This document shows, in pieces, positions 338 to 27,008 of a stretch of 64,000 nucleotides of DNA. Under the pieces are notes generated by a model. That model ran no database searches and was not told where the DNA came from. It worked only from the letters and a program-made list of their open reading frames with translations. The position numbers and the translations under genes are program-made. Within the stretch, counting starts at the first letter, position 1; each line of letters starts with the position of its first letter. This DNA is from Alphaproteobacteria bacterium (GTDB lineage: Bacteria; Pseudomonadota; Alphaproteobacteria; Reyranellales; Reyranellaceae), in the NCBI GenBank assembly GCA_017308235.1, contig JAFKFL010000008.1:62001-126000 (forward strand), read 5' to 3'.

Positions 338-1906
338 CTAGGCTTTCTCCACGTTCCAGAACACGGTCACGGGCGAGGGGAGGTTGCCGGTGATGCCCTT
401 GCGGCGAGCCATCGGCTGCACGTACTGGCCAAGCGGCACCGTGACGCCGAGATCCATGATGCGCTTTTGCACCTCTTCGGCGATGCGACGCTGCGTGGCC
501 GGGTCGTTCGTGTGGAGGAAGCCCATGCGCAGCTTCTCGATCTCTTCGTCGAGCGGCCAGCCGAACTGGGCGCGATCGCCGGTCGTCTCGGTGTAGTGGT
601 TGACGATCGGATCGGCCAGCAACACGGCCGAGGCCGCCGTCATGGCAATGTTCCAGCCGCCCTTGCTGGGCGGGTCCTTCTTGGCGCGCCGGCCGACCAG
701 CGTCTGCCAGTCCATCGACTGCATGTCGACCTTGAAGCCGCCACGCTCCAGCAGGCCCTTGGCGACAGGCGCAAGGTTGGTGAGCACGGCAAGGTCGGTG
801 GACTGCAGCAGGGTGATCGGCGTGCCGTCGTAGCCTGCTTCCTTCAGAAGCTTCTTCGAGGCCTCGAAGTTCGCCTCCAGGATGCCATCCATGCCGGCCG
901 AGTTCTCGAGCGGCGTGCCGCAGCCGAACATTGCCTTGCAGACCTTGTAGTAGCGCGGGTCGCCGATCGTGGCCTTCAGGAAGTCCTCCTGCCGGAAGGC
1001 AAGTTCGGCGGCGCGGCGGATGCGCAGGTCGTTGGTCGGCGGCTGTTTCCAGTTGAAGCGCAGGATATAGGTGTTGCCGAGCGTATCTGGCGTGACGATC
1101 TCGATATTGCGATCCTTCTCGATCACCGGCAGCAGGTCGTGGCTCGGCTGCTCGAGCATGTCGATCTCGCCCGAGAGCAGGGCATTGATCGCCGTCTGTG
1201 AGTCGGGGATCGAGACCCATTCGACGCGCTCGAGCTTGACCACCTTGCCGCCAGCGAGACCTGAGGGCGGCTCGGCGCGCGGCACGTAGTCGGGATTGCG
1301 CACGTAGACGACCTTCTCGCCTGGCTTCCATTCGTCCCGCTTGAAGATAAAGGGGCCGCAACCGGTCGTGTCGGAGATCTGCTGGCTGATCGGCGTTTCG
1401 GCCACGCGCTTGGGCATGACGAAGAGGGGCACCGAGGCGGGTTTGGAGAGCGCCTTCAAGATCGGACTGAACGGCTCCTTCAGCGCGATCCGGAAGGTCC
1501 GCTCGTCGGGTGCGGTCATCTCCTGCATGGCCTTGGCCAGCAGGCCACCCACGGCATCCTTGTCCATCCAGCGCTTGATCGAGGGCGTGACATCGGCCGA
1601 CGTGACAGGCGGTCCGTCATTCCACTTGAGCCCATTGCGCAGCTTGAAGGTCCAGACGAGCCCGTCGTCGCTCGTCGTCCAGCTCTCCACCATTTGCGGT
1701 CGCGGTTCGAGCTTATCGTCGGGCGCAAACAGCGTGTCGTAGATCATGTAGCCGTGGTTGCGGACGATGTAGGCGGTGGTCCAGATCGGATCGATGATCT
1801 TGAGGTCCGAATGCATCACCACGCGCAGCGTCTTCGCCGGCTGCTGCGCGAAGGCTTTGGTGGCCAGCAGCACGGCTGGTGTCGCGAGAAACGAACGACG
1901 CTGCAT
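338..1906 (-). CDS. ABC transporter substrate-binding protein, family 5 (oligopeptide/nickel type)
   Basis: A 522-residue periplasmic binding protein of the SBP_bac_5 family, the usual length for this family. The N-terminus MQRRSFLATPAVLLATKAFA resembles a twin-arginine or Sec signal with two arginines before the hydrophobic stretch. The mature part shows family landmarks such as VESWTTSDDGLVWTFKLRNG and the NDLRIRRAAELAFRQ region. No permease or ATPase gene is adjacent on this side, so it may work with a distant ABC transporter. It follows the alpha/beta hydrolase gene on the same strand after a gap of 37 bases. Substrate is unknown; many alphaproteobacterial members carry peptides or glutathione. 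Confidence 0.88.
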   Translation of the reverse strand: MQRRSFLATPAVLLATKAFAQQPAKTLRVVMHSDLKIIDPIWTTAYIVRNHGYMIYDTLFAPDDKLEPRPQMVESWTTSDDGLVWTFKLRNGLKWNDGPPVTSADVTPSIKRWMDKDAVGGLLAKAMQEMTAPDERTFRIALKEPFSPILKALSKPASVPLFVMPKRVAETPISQQISDTTGCGPFIFKRDEWKPGEKVVYVRNPDYVPRAEPPSGLAGGKVVKLERVEWVSIPDSQTAINALLSGEIDMLEQPSHDLLPVIEKDRNIEIVTPDTLGNTYILRFNWKQPPTNDLRIRRAAELAFRQEDFLKATIGDPRYYKVCKAMFGCGTPLENSAGMDGILEANFEASKKLLKEAGYDGTPITLLQSTDLAVLTNLAPVAKGLLERGGFKVDMQSMDWQTLVGRRAKKDPPSKGGWNIAMTAASAVLLADPIVNHYTETTGDRAQFGWPLDEEIEKLRMGFLHTNDPATQRRIAEEVQKRIMDLGVTVPLGQYVQPMARRKGITGNLPSPVTVFWNVEKA

Positions 1907-1943
1907 CTTTGTCCTCCCGAAATCTTATGTATGTGGGCACAGC

Positions 1944-2780
1944 TTAGCGGTGGCGCGCGAGGAACGTCTCCAGCAATCGGTTGAAGAATGCTGCTTGCTC
2001 GAAATAGGGCGAGTGGCCGCAGTCGGGAATGATATGGGCTTCCGCGTGCGACAGTCGGTCGGCAATGGGCCTGGCGAGGAAGGCCGGAAACACGACATCG
2101 TCTGCACCGCCGATCAGCAGCGTCGGCACCGGAAAGTCCTTGAGGTCAGCGAGCCGGCGAGTGGCGGTGCGCCCAAGCCCGGCACGTATCTTCTCCTTGT
2201 CGAGCGAGCCCGCCATCTCGTCGATGCTGCGGTAGAGGAGATGCAGCGCCGGCGAACGCTCGGCCGCGCCCGCGCCGACGGCCGGATGGATGCCGCGGGC
2301 AATCCCGTCGGCCACCGCGGCTCCAGCTTTCTTGGCCCAGGCATCGTATTCGGTGCCGCCGGATGGATCGCACTGGCGGCGGTCGAGCGTGCCCGCGGTC
2401 GAGCTCAGCACCAGCGCCTTGACCCGAGCGGCATGCGCAATCGCGTATTCGAGTACCGCCCAGCCGCCCATCGACTGGCCGACCAGGCGCACGTCGGCAA
2501 AACCGAGGTGATCGATCAGGGCGGCAAGATCGCCGGCATAGTCTGCCGGATCCGGACCGCCCGCGATCGCATCCGACGGCGCGAAGCCGCGATGGGCGAA
2601 GGCGACGCAAGTGTAATGCGGAGCAAAGTGGGCGACTTGCTGCCACCAGCTCAAATGATTGCCGCCCAGGCCATGGGCGAAGACCAGGGCCGGCCCGCTG
2701 CCGGTGACTTCGTAGTAGAGCGCGCCGAACGGCCGCTTCAATCGGCCTGCTGTGCGCGACGGTGCGTGATACGAACTCAT
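1944..2780 (-). CDS. alpha/beta hydrolase
   Basis: A 278-residue alpha/beta-hydrolase-fold enzyme. The oxyanion HGLGG motif is at about residues 36-40, the nucleophile elbow GQSMGG places the catalytic serine at about 103, an acid candidate lies in GGADDVVF and the histidine in DCGHSPYF near residue 257. It resembles the 3-oxoadipate enol-lactonase / C-C bond hydrolase group, but the substrate cannot be read from the sequence. Its start is 11 bases downstream of the unrecognised 183-residue gene, so it probably belongs to the same transcript as the PaaA-like oxygenase, SDR and reductase. A role in hydrolysing a ring-opened intermediate is inference. Confidence 0.88.
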   Translation of the reverse strand: MSSYHAPSRTAGRLKRPFGALYYEVTGSGPALVFAHGLGGNHLSWWQQVAHFAPHYTCVAFAHRGFAPSDAIAGGPDPADYAGDLAALIDHLGFADVRLVGQSMGGWAVLEYAIAHAARVKALVLSSTAGTLDRRQCDPSGGTEYDAWAKKAGAAVADGIARGIHPAVGAGAAERSPALHLLYRSIDEMAGSLDKEKIRAGLGRTATRRLADLKDFPVPTLLIGGADDVVFPAFLARPIADRLSHAEAHIIPDCGHSPYFEQAAFFNRLLETFLARHR

Positions 2781-2791
2781 GCCTGTCCTCT

Positions 2792-3343
2792 TCAGAAGAG
2801 GACCAGCCTAGAGCCCATGATGCCAAGCGGCCAGCGGCCGGCAGCGAACAGACGGAACTTGCTTTCGAAGGGCGAGTCCTCGCGCCCGCCAAGGCGCGCG
2901 ACGGCGAGCTGGTACACGGCCTGCGCCGCGGCCCCGGCGGCGACATGGATCGAGGCGGGCGCGGCATGACCCATCCGGGCCGCGGCGGTGGCCGCCTTGC
3001 CATGCACCAGTTCGCCCGCGTGCGTGGTGAGTTCGGTGAGCGCCGTCCACAGCACGCGCTCGGCGTAACGGCCTTCGGCCTCGGCGAGCAACCTGCGGCG
3101 CAGCGTGTCTTCACGGTCCCACCAGCCCGAGGAATCAGGCTGCTGGAGCAGCCGTTCCGCCTCAGGCCAATCGCGCGCCAAGTCGATCTCGATTGGGCCG
3201 ATGCCCAAGGCGGCGACATAGGCGCGGGCATCGGCCTGGTCGCCCTCGGTGAGCGGCTCGCCAAGGGCGGCGAACCACGACGCCGTCTTCACCTCGCCAC
3301 GCAGGGACTCAAGCACAGTGCGCGGAAGGGCGATGGCGCCCAT
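2792..3343 (-). CDS. Unrecognised protein, possible partner of the PaaA-like oxygenase
   Basis: I do not recognise this 183-residue protein. It has no signal peptide or membrane segment. It contains two histidines in the helical stretch LTELTTHAGELVHGKA and an alanine-rich helix ending PFESKFRLFAAGRWPLG. I chose the ATG at 3343 because it lies 5 bases beyond the stop of the PaaA-like gene; reading further upstream would overlap that gene. The tight spacing suggests the two proteins are made together. PaaA needs a structural partner (PaaC) in the phenylacetyl-CoA epoxidase, and this protein could play such a role, but I see no clear PaaC motif, so that is a guess. Confidence 0.7.
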   Translation of the reverse strand: MGAIALPRTVLESLRGEVKTASWFAALGEPLTEGDQADARAYVAALGIGPIEIDLARDWPEAERLLQQPDSSGWWDREDTLRRRLLAEAEGRYAERVLWTALTELTTHAGELVHGKAATAAARMGHAAPASIHVAAGAAAQAVYQLAVARLGGREDSPFESKFRLFAAGRWPLGIMGSRLVLF

Positions 3344-3348
3344 CGGTG

Positions 3349-4053
3349 TTACGCCGCTTCCCGGATCTCCGGCAGGGTGAGGCCGTACTTCGTCGCGACC
3401 TCGGTCGCGCGCTTCACATAGTCCTCGCGCATCTCGTCGTTGGTACGCTGCTTGATCTTCCATTTGCGGAAGATCTCGTTGTTCCTGGATTTCGAGCCAC
3501 CGAAGAATTTTGGCAGGTAAGGCCAGTATTCGTCGACTGCTGCCTGCAGTGTCGCCTTGCCCTCCGGCGTCTTGATGAGCTCGGAAGTAAAGTCTTCGCC
3601 GAACTGCGCATGGAAGCGCTCTTCCGGCATGGTGGCGCGAGCGAGGTTGCGCAGCGGGTGGAAGGTGCAATGCAGCAGGTCTTCGACCTGCAGGATCTCG
3701 GCGAGGTCGGCCAGAAGCTTGATCGCGACGAACTCCTCCCAGGTCTTGAGCGGGAACTCGAAGATCGAGAGCGGCTTCTTGCCGGCGCCCGGGACCATGC
3801 GGTCCTCAGGAATGCCGATCTGCAGGCCGAGCTGCTTGAAGCGTACATGATGGCCATATTCCTCCATCGCCACGCGGCAGGTGAGCCACTTGGCGTAGGG
3901 TGTCGGCGCGTAGGCGATGGCAGGCTCGTCGAACACCTGCGCGCCGTAGAGTTCGTTGACGGCGTGGCTGATCACGAGCTTGGCGACCGCCTCGCGATAT
4001 TCCTCGGGCGCATCCTTCAGCTCTTCGACGGTCTTCACGACAAGGTCGGTCAT
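3349..4053 (-). CDS. PaaA/PaaC-like ferritin-fold diiron oxygenase subunit
   Basis: A 234-residue helical protein of the phenylacetic acid catabolic family (PaaA/PaaC). It carries the diiron pattern of ferritin-like oxygenases: E34 in NELYG, E65-x-x-H68 in MEEYGHH, acidic residues at 119 and 124 (AEILQVED), and E145-x-x-H148 in PEERFH. PaaA of the phenylacetyl-CoA epoxidase is about 300 residues, so this is a short form. It is encoded between an SDR and an unknown protein and downstream of a 2Fe-2S/FAD reductase that could supply electrons. PaaB, PaaD and a PaaE of usual domain order are absent, so it is not a standard paa operon. The substrate is unknown. Confidence 0.82.
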   Translation of the reverse strand: MTDLVVKTVEELKDAPEEYREAVAKLVISHAVNELYGAQVFDEPAIAYAPTPYAKWLTCRVAMEEYGHHVRFKQLGLQIGIPEDRMVPGAGKKPLSIFEFPLKTWEEFVAIKLLADLAEILQVEDLLHCTFHPLRNLARATMPEERFHAQFGEDFTSELIKTPEGKATLQAAVDEYWPYLPKFFGGSKSRNNEIFRKWKIKQRTNDEMREDYVKRATEVATKYGLTLPEIREAA

Positions 4054-4064
4054 GGCGGGCTCCC

Positions 4065-4997
4065 TCAGACAAGAGGTTCGGTGTTGAAGGCTTCGAGATC
4101 GGTGGTGAGGTCGGTGAACTGGCCGGCAAGCTTGGCCACCAGGTCGTCGGCGAGCGCGGCAGGCTTCTCGACCTCGAGCCGGGCAATGGGGCGCGGCTGG
4201 CCAAACAAAAAGACCTCGCGGCCGCGCACGCCCAGAAGCTGGCCGGTGATGCCCTTGGCGGCCGGTGCGCAGAGCGCCGTCACCAGGTTTGCGACATGGT
4301 GGGCGCCGATCTTGAGGGCGCGTTCCTTGTAGGTCTTCTGTGCGTCGTTGGCTGGCTGGATGATGTCGGTGACGCGGGTGCGCGCAAAGGGCGCCACGGC
4401 GTTCACGGTGATCGCCGCGCGCTGCAGGTCCATCGCGGTGACTCGCGTGAGGCCAAACAGGCCTGCCTTGGCGCTGGCGTAGGCGGCCTGGCCGAGATTG
4501 CCGTAGAGGCCCGCCGAAGAGACGATGTTGATGATGCGGCCCCAGTCGTAGCCGCCTTTGCCGCCGCGGCCCGCCTTGCCCTGCTCGCGCATCACCGCCG
4601 AGGCGGCGTTGATCAGATAGAAGGGGGCAGAGAGGTTGTTGCGGATCACCGCGTCCCAGTCGCGCGGATCGGCGCGAAAGACGAAGGCGTCGCGCATGAT
4701 CGCGGCATTGTTTACCACGATGTCGATGCCGCCGAACTGCTTCACCGCAGTCTCGACGAGCAGCCTGGCGACTCCGGGCGAAGCCACGCTTTCGGTGAAG
4801 GCGATCGCCTTCTTGCCAAGGGCAGCGGCAACCTCTCGGGCGGGTGCGGGATCGGCGCTGTCGCCGGCGACGGACGCGCCGACATCGGCCACGATCACAT
4901 CAGCGCCTTGCGCGGCCAGTGCCTCGGCGATCGCCCGACCAATGCCGCGGCCAGCGCCGGTTACGATCGCCGAACGTCCATCCAGAAGTCCCGTCAT
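4065..4997 (-). CDS. SDR family NAD(P)-dependent dehydrogenase
   Basis: A 310-residue short-chain dehydrogenase. The cofactor motif TGAGRGIG is at residues 13-20, NNAA at 96-99, the catalytic serine at about 160-161 and YxxxK at Y173/K177. It is longer than a FabG (about 250 residues): the extra C-terminus resembles that of SDRs acting on larger or CoA-linked substrates. The ATG overlaps the stop of the reductase gene by 4 bases (ATGA), which implies translational coupling. The next gene, the diiron protein, starts 11 bases on. It probably oxidises a hydroxylated intermediate of the pathway (inference). Confidence 0.9.
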   Translation of the reverse strand: MTGLLDGRSAIVTGAGRGIGRAIAEALAAQGADVIVADVGASVAGDSADPAPAREVAAALGKKAIAFTESVASPGVARLLVETAVKQFGGIDIVVNNAAIMRDAFVFRADPRDWDAVIRNNLSAPFYLINAASAVMREQGKAGRGGKGGYDWGRIINIVSSAGLYGNLGQAAYASAKAGLFGLTRVTAMDLQRAAITVNAVAPFARTRVTDIIQPANDAQKTYKERALKIGAHHVANLVTALCAPAAKGITGQLLGVRGREVFLFGQPRPIARLEVEKPAALADDLVAKLAGQFTDLTTDLEAFNTEPLV

Positions 4998-6031
4998 AGT
5001 TCCGCTCCCGTCTTCTTGCCGGCACTCGCCATTTCGGCCGCGGTGTAGAACGCGTCGGCATGGACATCGATGCGCCGCATGCCGCGCTTCTCGAACAGTC
5101 TGGTCGCCGCCTCGACCATGACCGGCGGCCCGGCGAGGTAGGCCTTGCAGCCGTCGAACTCGTCGAAATCCTGGCCGACCGCCTCGTGCACGAAGCCCGT
5201 CCGCCACGTCCCGCCCATAGCTTCGCTCAGGACCGGCGTGAAGTGGAGGTTTTCGTGCTTTCGGGCCAGAGCCGCGAAGTGATCGTGCAGATAGAGGTCA
5301 CGTTCGGTGCGGACACCGAAATAGAAGTAGATGTGCTGCGGCAGCGCCTTGGCGAGGGCGCGCTCGACGATCGACTTCAGGGGCGCCATCCCCGAGCCGC
5401 CTGCCACGGCGATGATCGGCCCGCGATGGGTTTCGCGCAAATAAGAGGTGCCGAAGGGGCCTTCGACCCGGACACTGTTGCCGACCCTCAGCGTCTCCGC
5501 GACGTAGGCGCTGGTCGTGCCGCCCTCGGTGCGGCGTACGTGAAACTCCAGCATGGGATCGCCCGGAACATTGGCCATTGAGTAATCGCGCGGCTGGCAG
5601 CCATCGAAAGTGACGGACGCATACTGGCCGGCCGAGAAATCGAACGGCCCGCCTGCCACGATCTCGAGTCGGACGCGCCGGATATCGTGTGTGGCATCGT
5701 CGAGCCCTGCGACCTTGCAGGTAAGCACGCGGCGGGGGTGGATAATCAGATCGTCCTCCTCAAGCCACGCCACCTCCGAGTCCTCCCAGGGGACGGCGCG
5801 ACAGGCGAGGATCAGCCCGCGATCCTTCTCCTCGTCGGAGAGCGCAAACTCGGAATAGCCCTCCATCGAGACTTCGCCCTTCACCAGGTGTGATTTGCAG
5901 GCGCCGCAGTTGCCTGACTGGCAGCCATGCGGATAGGCGACGCCGGCCTCGAGGGCGGTCTCGAGGATCGTGGCGCCGGTCGGCACTTCGATGGTGCGGC
6001 TGGCCGGAACGATATGGACCTTGAAGCTCAT
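4994..6031 (-). CDS. Oxygenase reductase: N-terminal 2Fe-2S ferredoxin plus FAD/NAD(P)H domains
   Basis: A 345-residue electron-transfer flavoprotein. The plant-type 2Fe-2S domain comes first, with cysteines at 37, 42, 45 and 77 (HGCQSGNCGAC ... LILACRA). A ferredoxin reductase-like FAD domain follows with RDYSMANVPGD, then the NAD(P)H domain with GGSGMAPLKSI. This order is that of phenol hydroxylase component P5, MmoC and BenC, and is opposite to PaaE, where the iron-sulphur domain is C-terminal. I chose the ATG at 6031 because MSFKVHIVP starts the ferredoxin fold directly. It is the first gene of the minus-strand cluster and diverges from the marR-type gene. It probably passes electrons to the diiron protein two genes on. 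Confidence 0.9.
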   Translation of the reverse strand: MSFKVHIVPASRTIEVPTGATILETALEAGVAYPHGCQSGNCGACKSHLVKGEVSMEGYSEFALSDEEKDRGLILACRAVPWEDSEVAWLEEDDLIIHPRRVLTCKVAGLDDATHDIRRVRLEIVAGGPFDFSAGQYASVTFDGCQPRDYSMANVPGDPMLEFHVRRTEGGTTSAYVAETLRVGNSVRVEGPFGTSYLRETHRGPIIAVAGGSGMAPLKSIVERALAKALPQHIYFYFGVRTERDLYLHDHFAALARKHENLHFTPVLSEAMGGTWRTGFVHEAVGQDFDEFDGCKAYLAGPPVMVEAATRLFEKRGMRRIDVHADAFYTAAEMASAGKKTGAEL

Positions 6032-6116: not shown

Positions 6117-6605
6117 ATGGCCAGTCCACCTGATCCGCAGAACGGCAAGCCGCCAGCCAGACCGCTCGATCGCGGCATCCTGCCCCAGCTTCTGGGCTAC
6201 GGCCTGCGGCGCGCCCAGTCGGCGGTGTTCGCCGATTTCGCCGCCACTTTTGCCAAGGCCGGCGAAGCGCTGACGCCGGGCGAGTTCGGCCTGCTGGTGC
6301 TGGTCGAGCGCAATGCGGGGCTGAGCCAGATGGCGCTGGCCCGGGCGCTTTCCATCGATCGTTCGACACTTGTCCCCATCCTGAACCGCCTGCAGGCCCG
6401 TGGGTTGCTGCTGCGGCATGCGTCGCCAACGGACGGGCGGACCCACGCGCTGGCGCTCACGCCCGCGGGTGAAAGGGCGCTGGCGAAGTTCGCGCGGCTC
6501 GTGAAAGCGCATGAAAAGCGGATCGGCTCAAACCTTTCGGCGACCGAAATGCGCATGCTGATCGAGCTTCTGGAGAAAGTGCACGCTGCCGCCGGTTCGC
6601 TATAG
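6117..6605 (+). CDS. MarR family transcriptional regulator
   Basis: A 162-residue MarR-type winged-helix protein. The recognition helix region LSQMALARALSIDRSTLVPI and the wing ASPTDGRTHALALTPAG lie in the middle of the protein, as is usual. It is transcribed divergently from the oxygenase cluster, with a palindrome 20-40 bases before its ATG, so it is the likely regulator of that cluster and of itself. I chose the ATG at 6117 (MASPPDPQ); reading further upstream would cover the operator. There is no clear ribosome site, so a near-leaderless start is possible. The thioesterase gene follows after 11 bases. Confidence 0.85.
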   Translation: MASPPDPQNGKPPARPLDRGILPQLLGYGLRRAQSAVFADFAATFAKAGEALTPGEFGLLVLVERNAGLSQMALARALSIDRSTLVPILNRLQARGLLLRHASPTDGRTHALALTPAGERALAKFARLVKAHEKRIGSNLSATEMRMLIELLEKVHAAAGSL

Positions 6606-6616
6606 TCCGCGGCGCC

Positions 6617-7084
6617 ATGAATTCCGCCCATCCCGACTTCGCCCATGTCGACTCAGCATCCGCGACCGACGCGGATCTGCTCAAACTCCTGCAGGCGTCG
6701 CCCGGCAACCCGGTGAAGACGCTGAACGGCAAGCTGATCGACATCGATTCAGCGCGCGGCATTGCGCGCATGCAGTTCGAGATCGTGCCAGCCTTCTGCC
6801 ACACGCAGGGCAAGGTCTGTCAGGGCGGCTTCCTTACCGGGATGGTCGACACGGCCATGTCGATGGCGGGGTTCGCCAAGGGCAAGCTCCTGGTCGATGT
6901 GCCCACGCTCGAGATCAAGGTCAGTTTCCTCGAGGCCATGGGCCCGGGCGTTGTCTTCGCCGAAGGCCGCGTGACGCGCTGGGGCGGCTCGGTCGGCTTC
7001 CTCAATGGCGACTTAAAGGACGAGAAAGGCCGGCTGATCGTGCACGCGACCTCGACGATCAAGATCGTGCGGCTGAAGCGCTAG
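6617..7084 (+). CDS. PaaI-type hotdog thioesterase
   Basis: A 155-residue hotdog-fold protein. The PaaI-like signature GGFLTGMVDTAMSMAGF is central, with the acidic residue that positions the water in acyl-CoA thioesterases of this group. It lies directly after the MarR-type gene and probably shares its transcript. In the PAA pathway PaaI removes CoA from dead-end hydroxylated intermediates; a comparable clearing role beside the PaaA-like cluster is plausible but inferred. Its 3' end overlaps the convergent PNPOx-like gene by 4 bases. Confidence 0.85.
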   Translation: MNSAHPDFAHVDSASATDADLLKLLQASPGNPVKTLNGKLIDIDSARGIARMQFEIVPAFCHTQGKVCQGGFLTGMVDTAMSMAGFAKGKLLVDVPTLEIKVSFLEAMGPGVVFAEGRVTRWGGSVGFLNGDLKDEKGRLIVHATSTIKIVRLKR

Positions 7085-25151: not shown

Positions 25152-25787
25152 TTATCGAGTACTACGCTTACATCTTACGAACCACTGATCGAGCACCACT
25201 AGTTCCCTTAGCAAGTCCTTTATGCGGTTGTACTCCGTTTCAGGATCGAGGACCGATTGAACCGATCTCGCAGATCCATGCGCGTGCTTGCCGCGGATAG
25301 TTCCAAGGGTGTCAAGATCTGGAAGAAGAGTAGTGCCAAGCGCAGTTGCAGGAACACCAAGGGGGGCTAACAAGCTCAACACATTCTTTTCTTTGATGCC
25401 GTGGTTGTCCCTAATTTGCTTGTAGTACTTTTCAAAAAGACTAGTCGCAGCGTCTTCTAATCGCTGTGGACTGTCTTTCGAACTCCCTTGAAGAGTCTGA
25501 GGAATGCCAACTCGATCGGCCACAGTTGCCAGAAGAAAGGCTAAAGGCGTGGTAACTCGTTTAGACGTAGTCCACAATGTTTCGGCCGTTCTAGCGATGT
25601 CTTTGGCCCACTCCTCTAGATAAATCTCTATCTCGGCATGGCTTAGTACAAGGAAGGCTCGCGTTCGAGCTTGGACGCGAATGCTATTAGCGTAACTACC
25701 GAGGGGATCAAATGCCGCTGGCAGAAAATGCCGCCGCAACATTTCGACCTCACGCTTTAAGTGGCCCCATCGTCTTGAGTTTGGCAT
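25152..25787 (-). CDS. HEPN-like nuclease-type protein (RiboL-PSP-HEPN / MAE_28990-like)
   Basis: A 211-residue helical protein. Near the C-terminus TIRGKHAHG gives an R-x4-H motif (R165, H170) that resembles the RNxxAH catalytic motif of HEPN RNases, and an acidic helix SHAEIEIYLEEWAKDIA at 49-65 is typical of the RiboL-PSP-HEPN and MAE_28990 groups. It follows the DUF262 gene after 21 bases on the same strand. GC content is about 48%, far below the neighbours, which implies recent transfer. A two-gene defence module is the best reading; toxin activity has not been shown from sequence. Confidence 0.72.
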   Translation of the reverse strand: MPNSRRWGHLKREVEMLRRHFLPAAFDPLGSYANSIRVQARTRAFLVLSHAEIEIYLEEWAKDIARTAETLWTTSKRVTTPLAFLLATVADRVGIPQTLQGSSKDSPQRLEDAATSLFEKYYKQIRDNHGIKEKNVLSLLAPLGVPATALGTTLLPDLDTLGTIRGKHAHGSARSVQSVLDPETEYNRIKDLLRELVVLDQWFVRCKRSTR

Positions 25788-25808
25788 CTTGGGAAGTGTC
25801 GACCACTG

Positions 25809-27008
25809 CTAGGCCGCGTTTTTCTCTCGAGGTGCTGGTTTGTCCGGCACGGGAATTTTCGGCGTGGTGAAAGTTTGCTCAGCAATCGTTGAGAGACTCT
25901 TGGCCCAAATGCGAAGGCGAGCGGAAGTATTGGGCGCTCCGGCGGTGTCACTCTCAACTGCCTTTAAGAAGGGAGAAGGAGATATAAACAACTCCTGATA
26001 TGCCTTCTTCACGGCTGAGTTCTTCGACTTCAGGGCGGTCCGAACGCGAGGCTGAGATTGAAAGTATATTAGCGCGTCGAATATAGCGCGATTGAATTGG
26101 GGCGACGTAGGTTTCCTCGCAACACGATCGTCAAATACTTTCAGAAGGCTAGCCACACCGAGCTCGAACTCGGCAACTGCTTGTTCCACCTTCGGCTTAA
26201 ACGTAGACCAGTTATCGTTAAATTCTTCAAAAGTGTTATCCAGAAATTTCTTCATTCTTCCTGGATACTTATTGGCAAAGAATCTGAACGCGAGGAAACG
26301 CGCCAATATCTCTGTGTCTCGCATACGCGTGTCCGGCCCATTGATTCCGAGCAAGCGACGAAGCGCTTTGGAGGAGCCGGCACTATCATCGATGTAGTTC
26401 GAAAACTCACCGGGAAGGAGGGCTTGCCGAAGCTCCTGAGGCGAGAGCGTTACACTGCCCGTATTCAGACGGAGGAACACCGTGTGGAGAAAATCTGTGT
26501 CCTTCCAGTTCCGAATCACCACGGTTCGAATGGGCTGGTTGCACAACGCATTGAAGTCACTCTCGAATGTCGATTCTTTCGACAGAGTTTTGAAGGACTG
26601 CCCTATTAGATCATCTCGAAGCGTCAGTGATGACAAAGCGTACGCATTGTTGTCACCTTGTCCGTGACCCCAAAACTGCATTATCGTTAGCAATCGTTGC
26701 TTGCCATCCAAGACGATGAATTTGCCTCGTTCCCGTTTGGACTCGGCGAGGACGATTTGCGGGATCGGAAGGCCGACAATCAAGGATTCAATAAAGCGGC
26801 TTTTGCGATCTTTCTTCCAAGCGTCTCGTCGCTGAAAGCGAGGATCGAGTTGAATATTTCCTCTCTTTAGCTGGGAAACGATAGTCTCAGTCGTCCAGTC
26901 AGTGCCGGTAACAACGGCTGCCGTAGATCCTGGACGTAGGTGCTCGGCAACGTCCTGCTCGTCGGCTTCGTCATCAAATTCCAACTGTGGATGTGGTTCT
27001 TTCGCCAT
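25809..27008 (-). CDS. DUF262 domain protein (ParB/Srx-like NTPase-nuclease, GmrS-type N-domain)
   Basis: A 399-residue protein. The DUF262 core occupies about residues 38-200: LDPRFQRRDAWKKDRKSRFI (54-73), LPIPQIVLAE (80-89) and VLDGKQRLLTI (99-109), the last being the family's DGxQRxTT nucleotide site. In the GmrSD type IV restriction enzymes DUF262 forms the GmrS part; the DUF1524 HNH domain of GmrD is not visible in the C-terminus. Low GC matches the next gene. DUF262 proteins combined with HEPN partners are frequent in defence islands, so an anti-phage role is likely but inferred. Confidence 0.85.
   Translation of the reverse strand: MAKEPHPQLEFDDEADEQDVAEHLRPGSTAAVVTGTDWTTETIVSQLKRGNIQLDPRFQRRDAWKKDRKSRFIESLIVGLPIPQIVLAESKRERGKFIVLDGKQRLLTIMQFWGHGQGDNNAYALSSLTLRDDLIGQSFKTLSKESTFESDFNALCNQPIRTVVIRNWKDTDFLHTVFLRLNTGSVTLSPQELRQALLPGEFSNYIDDSAGSSKALRRLLGINGPDTRMRDTEILARFLAFRFFANKYPGRMKKFLDNTFEEFNDNWSTFKPKVEQAVAEFELGVASLLKVFDDRVARKPTSPQFNRAIFDALIYFQSQPRVRTALKSKNSAVKKAYQELFISPSPFLKAVESDTAGAPNTSARLRIWAKSLSTIAEQTFTTPKIPVPDKPAPREKNAA

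Follow-up and report, generated by a model that had tools for sequence, protein, structure and literature searches.

4-Hydroxybenzoate is among the commonest aromatic acids derived from lignin and plant matter, and the textbook first step in its use is conversion to protocatechuate by PobA (4-hydroxybenzoate 3-hydroxylase), a single flavoprotein. A different route, encoded by phgABC, is reported to lead from 4-hydroxybenzoate to gentisate through a coenzyme A (CoA) ester, a hydroxylation with a 1,2-shift and hydrolysis of the thioester (PMC7862547), and Bacillus species and Haloarcula are also reported to form gentisate from 4-hydroxybenzoate (PMC10815724). CoA esters are likewise the substrates of two diiron oxygenases, PaaA of the PaaABCE complex and BoxB, a single ferritin-like protein that acts on aryl-CoA together with a reductase. 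The account of PaaA in PMC4498308 lists Glu42, Glu72, His75, Asp126, Glu155 and His158 as its iron ligands and describes a lysine bridge of Lys68 with Glu49. Here we describe a closely packed operon in a 64,000-nucleotide stretch of contig JAFKFL010000008.1 (the window) from an alphaproteobacterium of the family Reyranellaceae, which encodes, in this order on the - strand, a reductase, a short-chain dehydrogenase/reductase (SDR), a 234-residue PaaA-like diiron protein, a 183-residue (183-aa) protein and a hydrolase. It is very likely that this cluster converts a hydroxybenzoate to gentisate in the form of its CoA ester, with 4-hydroxybenzoate as the best candidate for the starting acid.

The diiron protein had been described, in an earlier sequence-only reading of the locus, as a short PaaA/PaaC-like protein carrying both ExxH motifs, and both the family match (Table 1) and the alignment agree with this: all six ligands (E34, E65, H68, D116, E145 and H148) are kept in 21/21 members of its clade. 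The best structural match of its predicted model (pLDDT 94.8) is PaaA (Z 27.7, rmsd 1.7, 231 aligned residues), with which it also shares Phe108, followed by SSO1313 of Sulfolobus (PDB 4mud, Z 25.5), PaaC (Z ~23) and BoxB (Z ~21). SSO1313 is itself a short PaaA/PaaC-like protein and matches by sequence at 51 bits; however, identity is only ~22%, and the title of its entry assigns no function.

Nevertheless, the protein falls outside ordinary PaaA. Its score against the PaaA model TIGR02156 is 92.9 bits, below the cut-off of 280, and that against the PaaC model is 35.5 bits; no other NCBIfam model matches it, including the BoxB model TIGR03225. In a tree of 42 rows, the 21 cluster members form one clade (support 99/97, present in 100% of 200 bootstrap trees) that lies outside the seven PaaA and four PaaC rows. 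The Thermus PaaA, on a long branch, groups with PaaC, and long-branch artefacts may underlie several other deep joins. The lysine bridge is lost as well, V61 and F41 replacing K68 and E49 in 21/21 clade rows, whereas K and E are found in 7/7 PaaA rows. Since the fold and the ligands are kept, while the protein has its own clade, a lost bridge and a score below the cut-off, it probably works as a PaaA-type diiron oxygenase without being a member of PaaA, and the earlier suggestion of a pathway separate from the ordinary one is upheld.

The partners differ accordingly from those of PaaA and BoxB. A PF05138 search of the whole source genome gave two places only, the diiron protein and one weak match that corresponds to BoxB, so that no PaaA or PaaC is present elsewhere in the genome. 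As had been noted before, PaaB and PaaD are missing from the operon: there is no PaaD in it, and no PaaB was seen there, although no genome-wide PaaB search was made. The reductase carries its 2Fe-2S domain first, followed by the FAD and NAD domains (by Pfam), again as first read; this is the order of bacterial multicomponent monooxygenase reductases. Against the BenC model it scores 186 bits, below the cut-off of 430. This reductase, the SDR partner and gentisate genes instead of paaFGHJZ set the system apart from PaaABCE. BoxB, in turn, has ~470 residues compared to 234, and the operon has no BoxA-type reductase; the source genome encodes its own separate BoxB (on contig C26; 842.7 bits, over the cut-off), adjoined by BoxC and a benzoate--CoA ligase, both named by eye.

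Two other groups of PF05138 proteins were compared with the cluster. A second short PaaA-like diiron subfamily (L035:1438-2193, L036:1435-2211 and L037:1444-2205) shows 29-37% identity to the window protein and an adjoining reductase of the same type; no SDR was found there, and the lysine bridge is likewise missing, with T and F at those positions. The archaeal and Thermus proteins were considered as a known system with an NIH shift and rejected, as the four regions read proved to be ordinary paa clusters, and the relatives in Alteromonas and Variovorax are different again.

We then compared the cluster across genomes, using a class sample of 289 alphaproteobacterial genomes, a phylum sample of 398 genomes, and named loci, for which counts rest on the best 80 of 158 loci from a scan of named genomes. 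Membership of the diiron subfamily was defined by E ~1e-100 or better, the next matches having at most 37% identity. The subfamily is carried by 19/289 genomes of the class sample, and in the phylum sample by three genomes only, namely the source genome (G000), G051 and G392, the last lying outside Alphaproteobacteria. Of 75 Reyranellaceae genomes, 46 have a match to the diiron protein, and close relatives among named genomes, at 88-95% identity, are mostly from Reyranella and related metagenome-assembled genomes. The gene is present, for example, in R. massiliensis 521 (L063). Among named loci with enough sequence, the SDR gene lies immediately upstream of the diiron gene in 74/77 relatives, and the reductase upstream of both, in the order reductase-SDR-diiron, in 72/75. 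The exceptions are L118, L125 and L098, where the diiron gene (L098:7980-8696) is broken by an in-frame stop, the first ligand His is replaced by Arg, and reductase, SDR and gentisate 1,2-dioxygenase genes were likewise not found. Such conservation of order is more than chance would be expected to produce. Of the five-gene order proposed in the sequence-only reading, this three-gene core and the 183-aa gene (close downstream of the diiron gene in 62/66 relatives) thus recur elsewhere, whereas the hydrolase is mostly an operon member in Reyranellaceae and occurs in just 3/51 non-Reyranella loci. We found no paper describing this cluster among open-licence PubMed Central papers, which is weak evidence.

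The neighbouring genes of the relatives point to a product. Outside Reyranellaceae, the gene that follows the diiron gene usually encodes a bicupin dioxygenase, gentisate 1,2-dioxygenase (GDO); two members tested against TIGR02272 scored 540.8 and 507.8 bits, over the cut-off of 442.1. GDO lies at most 4.5 kb from the diiron gene in 26/31 non-Reyranella named loci. In a wider tally of 51 non-Reyranella loci, which leaves out 40 Reyranella-like loci and includes fragments and 11 regions of other genomes, GDO was found in 43, ADP-forming CoA-ligase genes in 30, fumarylacetoacetate hydrolase (FAH)-type hydrolases in 22, 4HBT thioesterases in 14 and the AMP-forming ligase type in 9; L136 and L143 hold GDO without a diiron gene, L098 is counted, and L107/L139 and L088/L135 are apparently the same genomes entered twice. 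Further neighbours are a maleylacetoacetate/maleylpyruvate isomerase-type protein, genes of the benzoate-CoA-ligase family and TRAP (tripartite ATP-independent periplasmic) transporters. In G392, the row reads reductase, SDR, diiron protein, GDO, 183-aa protein, FAH-type hydrolase, thioesterase, isomerase and CoA ligase, the last being a full-length ADP-forming enzyme with an ATP-grasp domain. In five marine relatives (L103, L107 and L110-L112, at ~1400-5300), a CaiB-type CoA transferase gene and a two-gene CoA-transferase-like pair lie upstream, possibly providing another way to the CoA ester.

The association also holds at the level of whole genomes. In the class sample, GDO over the cut-off was present in 19/19 genomes with the diiron gene and in 24/270 others (Fisher p 3e-18, in a test which, like those below, treats related genomes as independent), and in 15 of the 19 it was on the contig of the diiron gene, within 3 kb. 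BoxB co-occurs strongly with GDO as well, being present in 34/43 GDO-positive genomes and 20/246 others. In the source genome, GDO is at C27:378010-379053, unlinked to the cluster, while a gene of the ADP-forming ligase alpha type is found near the cluster, just outside the window (G000:C17:56282-57760, equal to L132:11283-12761). Because GDO co-occurs in this way, and because the neighbours are of GDO, isomerase, hydrolase, CoA-ligase and thioesterase types, we consider it very likely that the operon provides the oxygenase step of an aerobic CoA-dependent route to gentisate.

As for the substrate, which the sequence-only reading had left unnamed, the distribution of PobA narrows the choice. 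PobA (TIGR02360) is present in 47/289 genomes of the class sample, in 0/19 with the diiron gene and in 18/24 GDO-positive genomes without it (p 2e-7). In 31 Reyranellaceae genomes that were analysed separately, hand-picked for completeness from the 75, PobA was present in 14/15 without the cluster and 2/16 with it (Fisher p 7e-6); for the genus Reyranella alone, the figures are 11/12 and 1/14. The exchange is visible in five families (f1, f93, f128, f75 and f36), while in f57, f65, f67 and f125 a listed genome without the diiron gene also has no PobA, as is the case for G357 in f75. Lack of PobA does not mean lack of aromatic catabolism, since 18 of the 19 diiron genomes carry BoxB and 11 have the protocatechuate 3,4-dioxygenase beta subunit over the cut-off. 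This presence/absence pattern is most simply read as a replacement of PobA by the cluster in the use of 4-hydroxybenzoate, which is, on these grounds, probably the substrate. The same proposed substrate would thus be handled in two ways, PobA giving protocatechuate and the cluster giving gentisate by means of a CoA ester and a diiron protein.

Taken as a whole, a CoA-thioester route from 4-hydroxybenzoate to gentisate through the diiron oxygenase is, on balance, the explanation we favour. In such a route, a CoA ligase, either ADP- or AMP-forming, would make 4-hydroxybenzoyl-CoA. With NADH as electron donor, the reductase would supply electrons to the diiron protein, and this protein would insert a single oxygen atom at ring positions C1/C2 in a PaaA-like reaction; owing to the 4-hydroxyl group, the product would open to a 1-hydroxy-4-oxo-cyclohexadienyl ester. 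By analogy with PhgABC, the acyl-CoA group may then shift to C2 (NIH shift), giving gentisyl-CoA, from which a thioesterase would free gentisate. Finally, GDO would open the ring, and an isomerase and a hydrolase, assigned at the level of families only, would lead to fumarate and pyruvate. The logic of CoA ligase, hydroxylation with acyl shift, thioesterase and subsequent GDO is that of PhgABC, and chemical reasoning suggests that the cyclohexadienone intermediate of that pathway would also arise, through ordinary reactions, from C1-C2 oxygenation of 4-hydroxybenzoyl-CoA. The hydroxylase differs: here, it would be a diiron protein with a reductase and an SDR, whereas PhgB is a flavoprotein. 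Within the window, the thioesterase gene of the divergent pair described below is a candidate for the gentisyl-CoA thioesterase of the source genome; the 4HBT genes near clusters, in the 14 loci of the tally as well as inside the G392 operon, belong to another subtype.

In our view, the cluster encodes a real, conserved and unannotated variant of the PaaA/BoxB kind. There is good support for its place in a CoA route to gentisate, and 4-hydroxybenzoate is its likely substrate. Tentatively, and with less assurance than for either of these parts, we propose that the diiron proteins form a new subfamily of acyl-CoA oxygenases. They may hydroxylate 4-hydroxybenzoyl-CoA at the ring carbon to which the CoA-carboxyl group is attached, with a 1,2-shift to gentisyl-CoA and the SDR acting in the rearrangement, and may replace PobA in many Alphaproteobacteria of soil and sea. 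If true, genome-based prediction of aromatic catabolism would change for many soil and marine lineages, the PaaA/BoxB oxygenases would gain a subfamily, and a mechanistic question would be posed as to the acyl shift after diiron oxygenation and the role of the SDR.

Several observations weigh against this proposal, in addition to the relatedness of the genomes tested. The contrast in PobA is weak when the diiron genomes are set against all 270 diiron-free genomes, 47 of which carry PobA (p 0.05), and for this reason the comparison with GDO-positive genomes matters. The exchange is not absolute, as G056 and G074 have both PobA and the cluster and G041 has neither, and 6/24 of the GDO-positive genomes are also without both. 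In Reyranellaceae, GDO was found in the stretch around the cluster in 0/42 loci. The ADP-forming ligase of two alphaproteobacterial clusters consists of CoA-binding and ligase domains without ATP-grasp, the latter being seen in the G392 ligase only, and since it has no ATP-grasp domain, this alpha-type protein may not act alone. The SDR, for which the PhgABC scheme provides no step, is the weakest point: it is conserved, with the catalytic Ser, Tyr and Lys intact in 75/75 relatives, and must presumably do something essential, which could mean a different substrate or intermediate. Lastly, the AMP-forming ligases of L125 and L140 match the model of HbdA (3-hydroxybenzoate--CoA ligase) best.

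This last observation would fit the same CoA route starting from 3-hydroxybenzoate, in which hydroxylation of 3-hydroxybenzoyl-CoA at C6 would give gentisyl-CoA with no acyl shift. However, both scores (367.5 bits for L125 and 279.9 bits for L140) are far under the HbdA cut-off of 1000, and a 3-hydroxybenzoate substrate gives no reason for the lack of PobA in the cluster genomes, so that we regard it as unlikely, if the least so of the alternatives. Salicylate would fit a gentisate product too, by C5 hydroxylation of salicyloyl-CoA to gentisyl-CoA; a CoA ligase and a thioesterase are at hand, and routes from salicylyl-CoA to gentisate are known in other bacteria. It appears improbable, as the PobA pattern would stay unexplained and an arene oxide on salicyloyl-CoA is expected, on chemical reasoning, to yield a different isomer.

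The conservation of the SDR, on a par with that of the oxygenase, and the overlap of its start with the reductase stop would be accounted for if the true substrate were a reduced or non-aromatic ring acid, oxidised by the diiron enzyme and the SDR up to gentisyl-CoA. We saw no further dehydrogenase common to the clusters, though, and what the distribution of PobA suggests is an aromatic acid that this enzyme would otherwise use; a reduced-ring substrate is, for these reasons, another outside candidate.

The last alternative of some weight concerns the 183-aa protein, which the sequence-only reading had taken for the second subunit of a two-subunit oxygenase, in place of PaaC or PaaB. Its position speaks for this: the gene follows the diiron gene after a gap of 5 bp, stays near it in most relatives and lies inside the G392 operon. 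As first stated, the protein is unrecognised, with Pfam, NCBIfam and further sequence searches all empty. The predicted model is helical (pLDDT 95.4) and has no Foldseek match in the PDB at E 0.001 or better; the sole notable match of the fold is the Rhs immunity protein RhsI2 (Z 11.5 and 9.9, the next row having 3.8), and no ferritin-like protein is prominent among the structural rows, which does not exclude one. The family has no invariant polar residue, which argues that the protein is not a catalytic subunit. In the class sample, its profile is found in 61/289 genomes, which include all but one of the 19 diiron genomes (18/19) and 43 that lack the diiron gene; conversely, the gene was not found in L083, L120, L123 or genome G081.

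In many of the diiron-free genomes, and in most of those sampled, the 183-aa gene is located between lolA and xthA; the contexts of 19 sampled loci (L153-L171) show lolA, ftsK, puuD-like and xthA neighbours (lolA and ftsK named by eye). Some of them contain partial clusters, namely reductase-GDO-183aa in L155, reductase-183aa in L162 and GDO-183aa in L153 and L154, and in a 56-row tree of the family, 17/19 rows from diiron-free loci group together. The protein thus seems to move with the cluster, even to G392, and also to exist independently of it; given the 43 diiron-free genomes that encode it, we would not call it an obligate subunit of the oxygenase. A PaaC- or PaaB-like role was rejected in view of the empty sequence searches, the lack of structural support and the diiron-free occurrence, and the two-subunit oxygenase of the sequence-only reading is accordingly improbable. 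The contexts of the diiron-free loci also indicate that puuD and xthA beside some clusters are genes of this locus and not of the pathway. A gamma-glutamyl intermediate, considered on account of a PuuD-like gene near the source-genome GDO and four clusters, was discarded on the same grounds.

The fold and six iron ligands of PaaA might suggest an ordinary epoxidase of phenylacetyl-CoA or benzoyl-CoA whose partners are unusual, but such an enzyme is very hard to reconcile with the separate clade, the score far below the PaaA cut-off, the missing lysine bridge, the lack of PaaC and the presence of a separate BoxB.

The layout of the locus (Table 1) contains all genes of the earlier description, and two starts were changed. 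The SDR start is better set at 4997, where its ATG overlaps the reductase stop in an ATGA; the open reading frame of the MarR gene is open from a GTG at 5970, and a start at 6117 is preferred. The MarR-thioesterase pair is divergent and lies in front of the operon, and a MarR gene is in the stretch of 32/51 non-Reyranella loci. Behind the operon is the SBP_bac_5 gene, the one of two claimed uptake proteins that was looked at; numerous Reyranellaceae loci have such a gene close to the cluster. The hydrolase scores 108.9 bits against TIGR02427 (PcaD), whose cut-off is 255.85.

Table 1 Genes of the diiron oxygenase cluster and its flanks, in window coordinates
Feature	Position	Strand	Family match
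SBP_bac_5 solute-binding protein, probable uptake partner	338-1906	-	PF00496, 236.9 bits
Alpha/beta hydrolase, PcaD-like	1944-2780	-	PF00561, 97.6 bits
Helical 183-aa protein, unnamed family	2792-3343	-	no Pfam/NCBIfam family
PaaA-like diiron oxygenase subunit, 234 aa, predicted aryl-CoA hydroxylase	3349-4053	-	PF05138, 105.7 bits
SDR dehydrogenase, 310 aa	4065-4997	-	PF00106, 134.6 bits
NADH:acceptor reductase, Fer2-FAD-NAD, BenC/MmoC type	4994-6031	-	PF00111, PF00970, PF00175
MarR-type regulator, divergent	6117-6605	+	PF12802, 47.3 bits
Hotdog (4HBT/PaaI-like) thioesterase	6617-7084	+	PF03061, 38.6 bits

Elsewhere in the window, a region of lower GC content (0.56-0.58) at 25152-27008 contains a GmrSD_N (DUF262-type) protein (25809-27008), paired with a HEPN-like protein (25152-25787) that scores just under the Pfam cut-off. 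This region looks like a small defence island.

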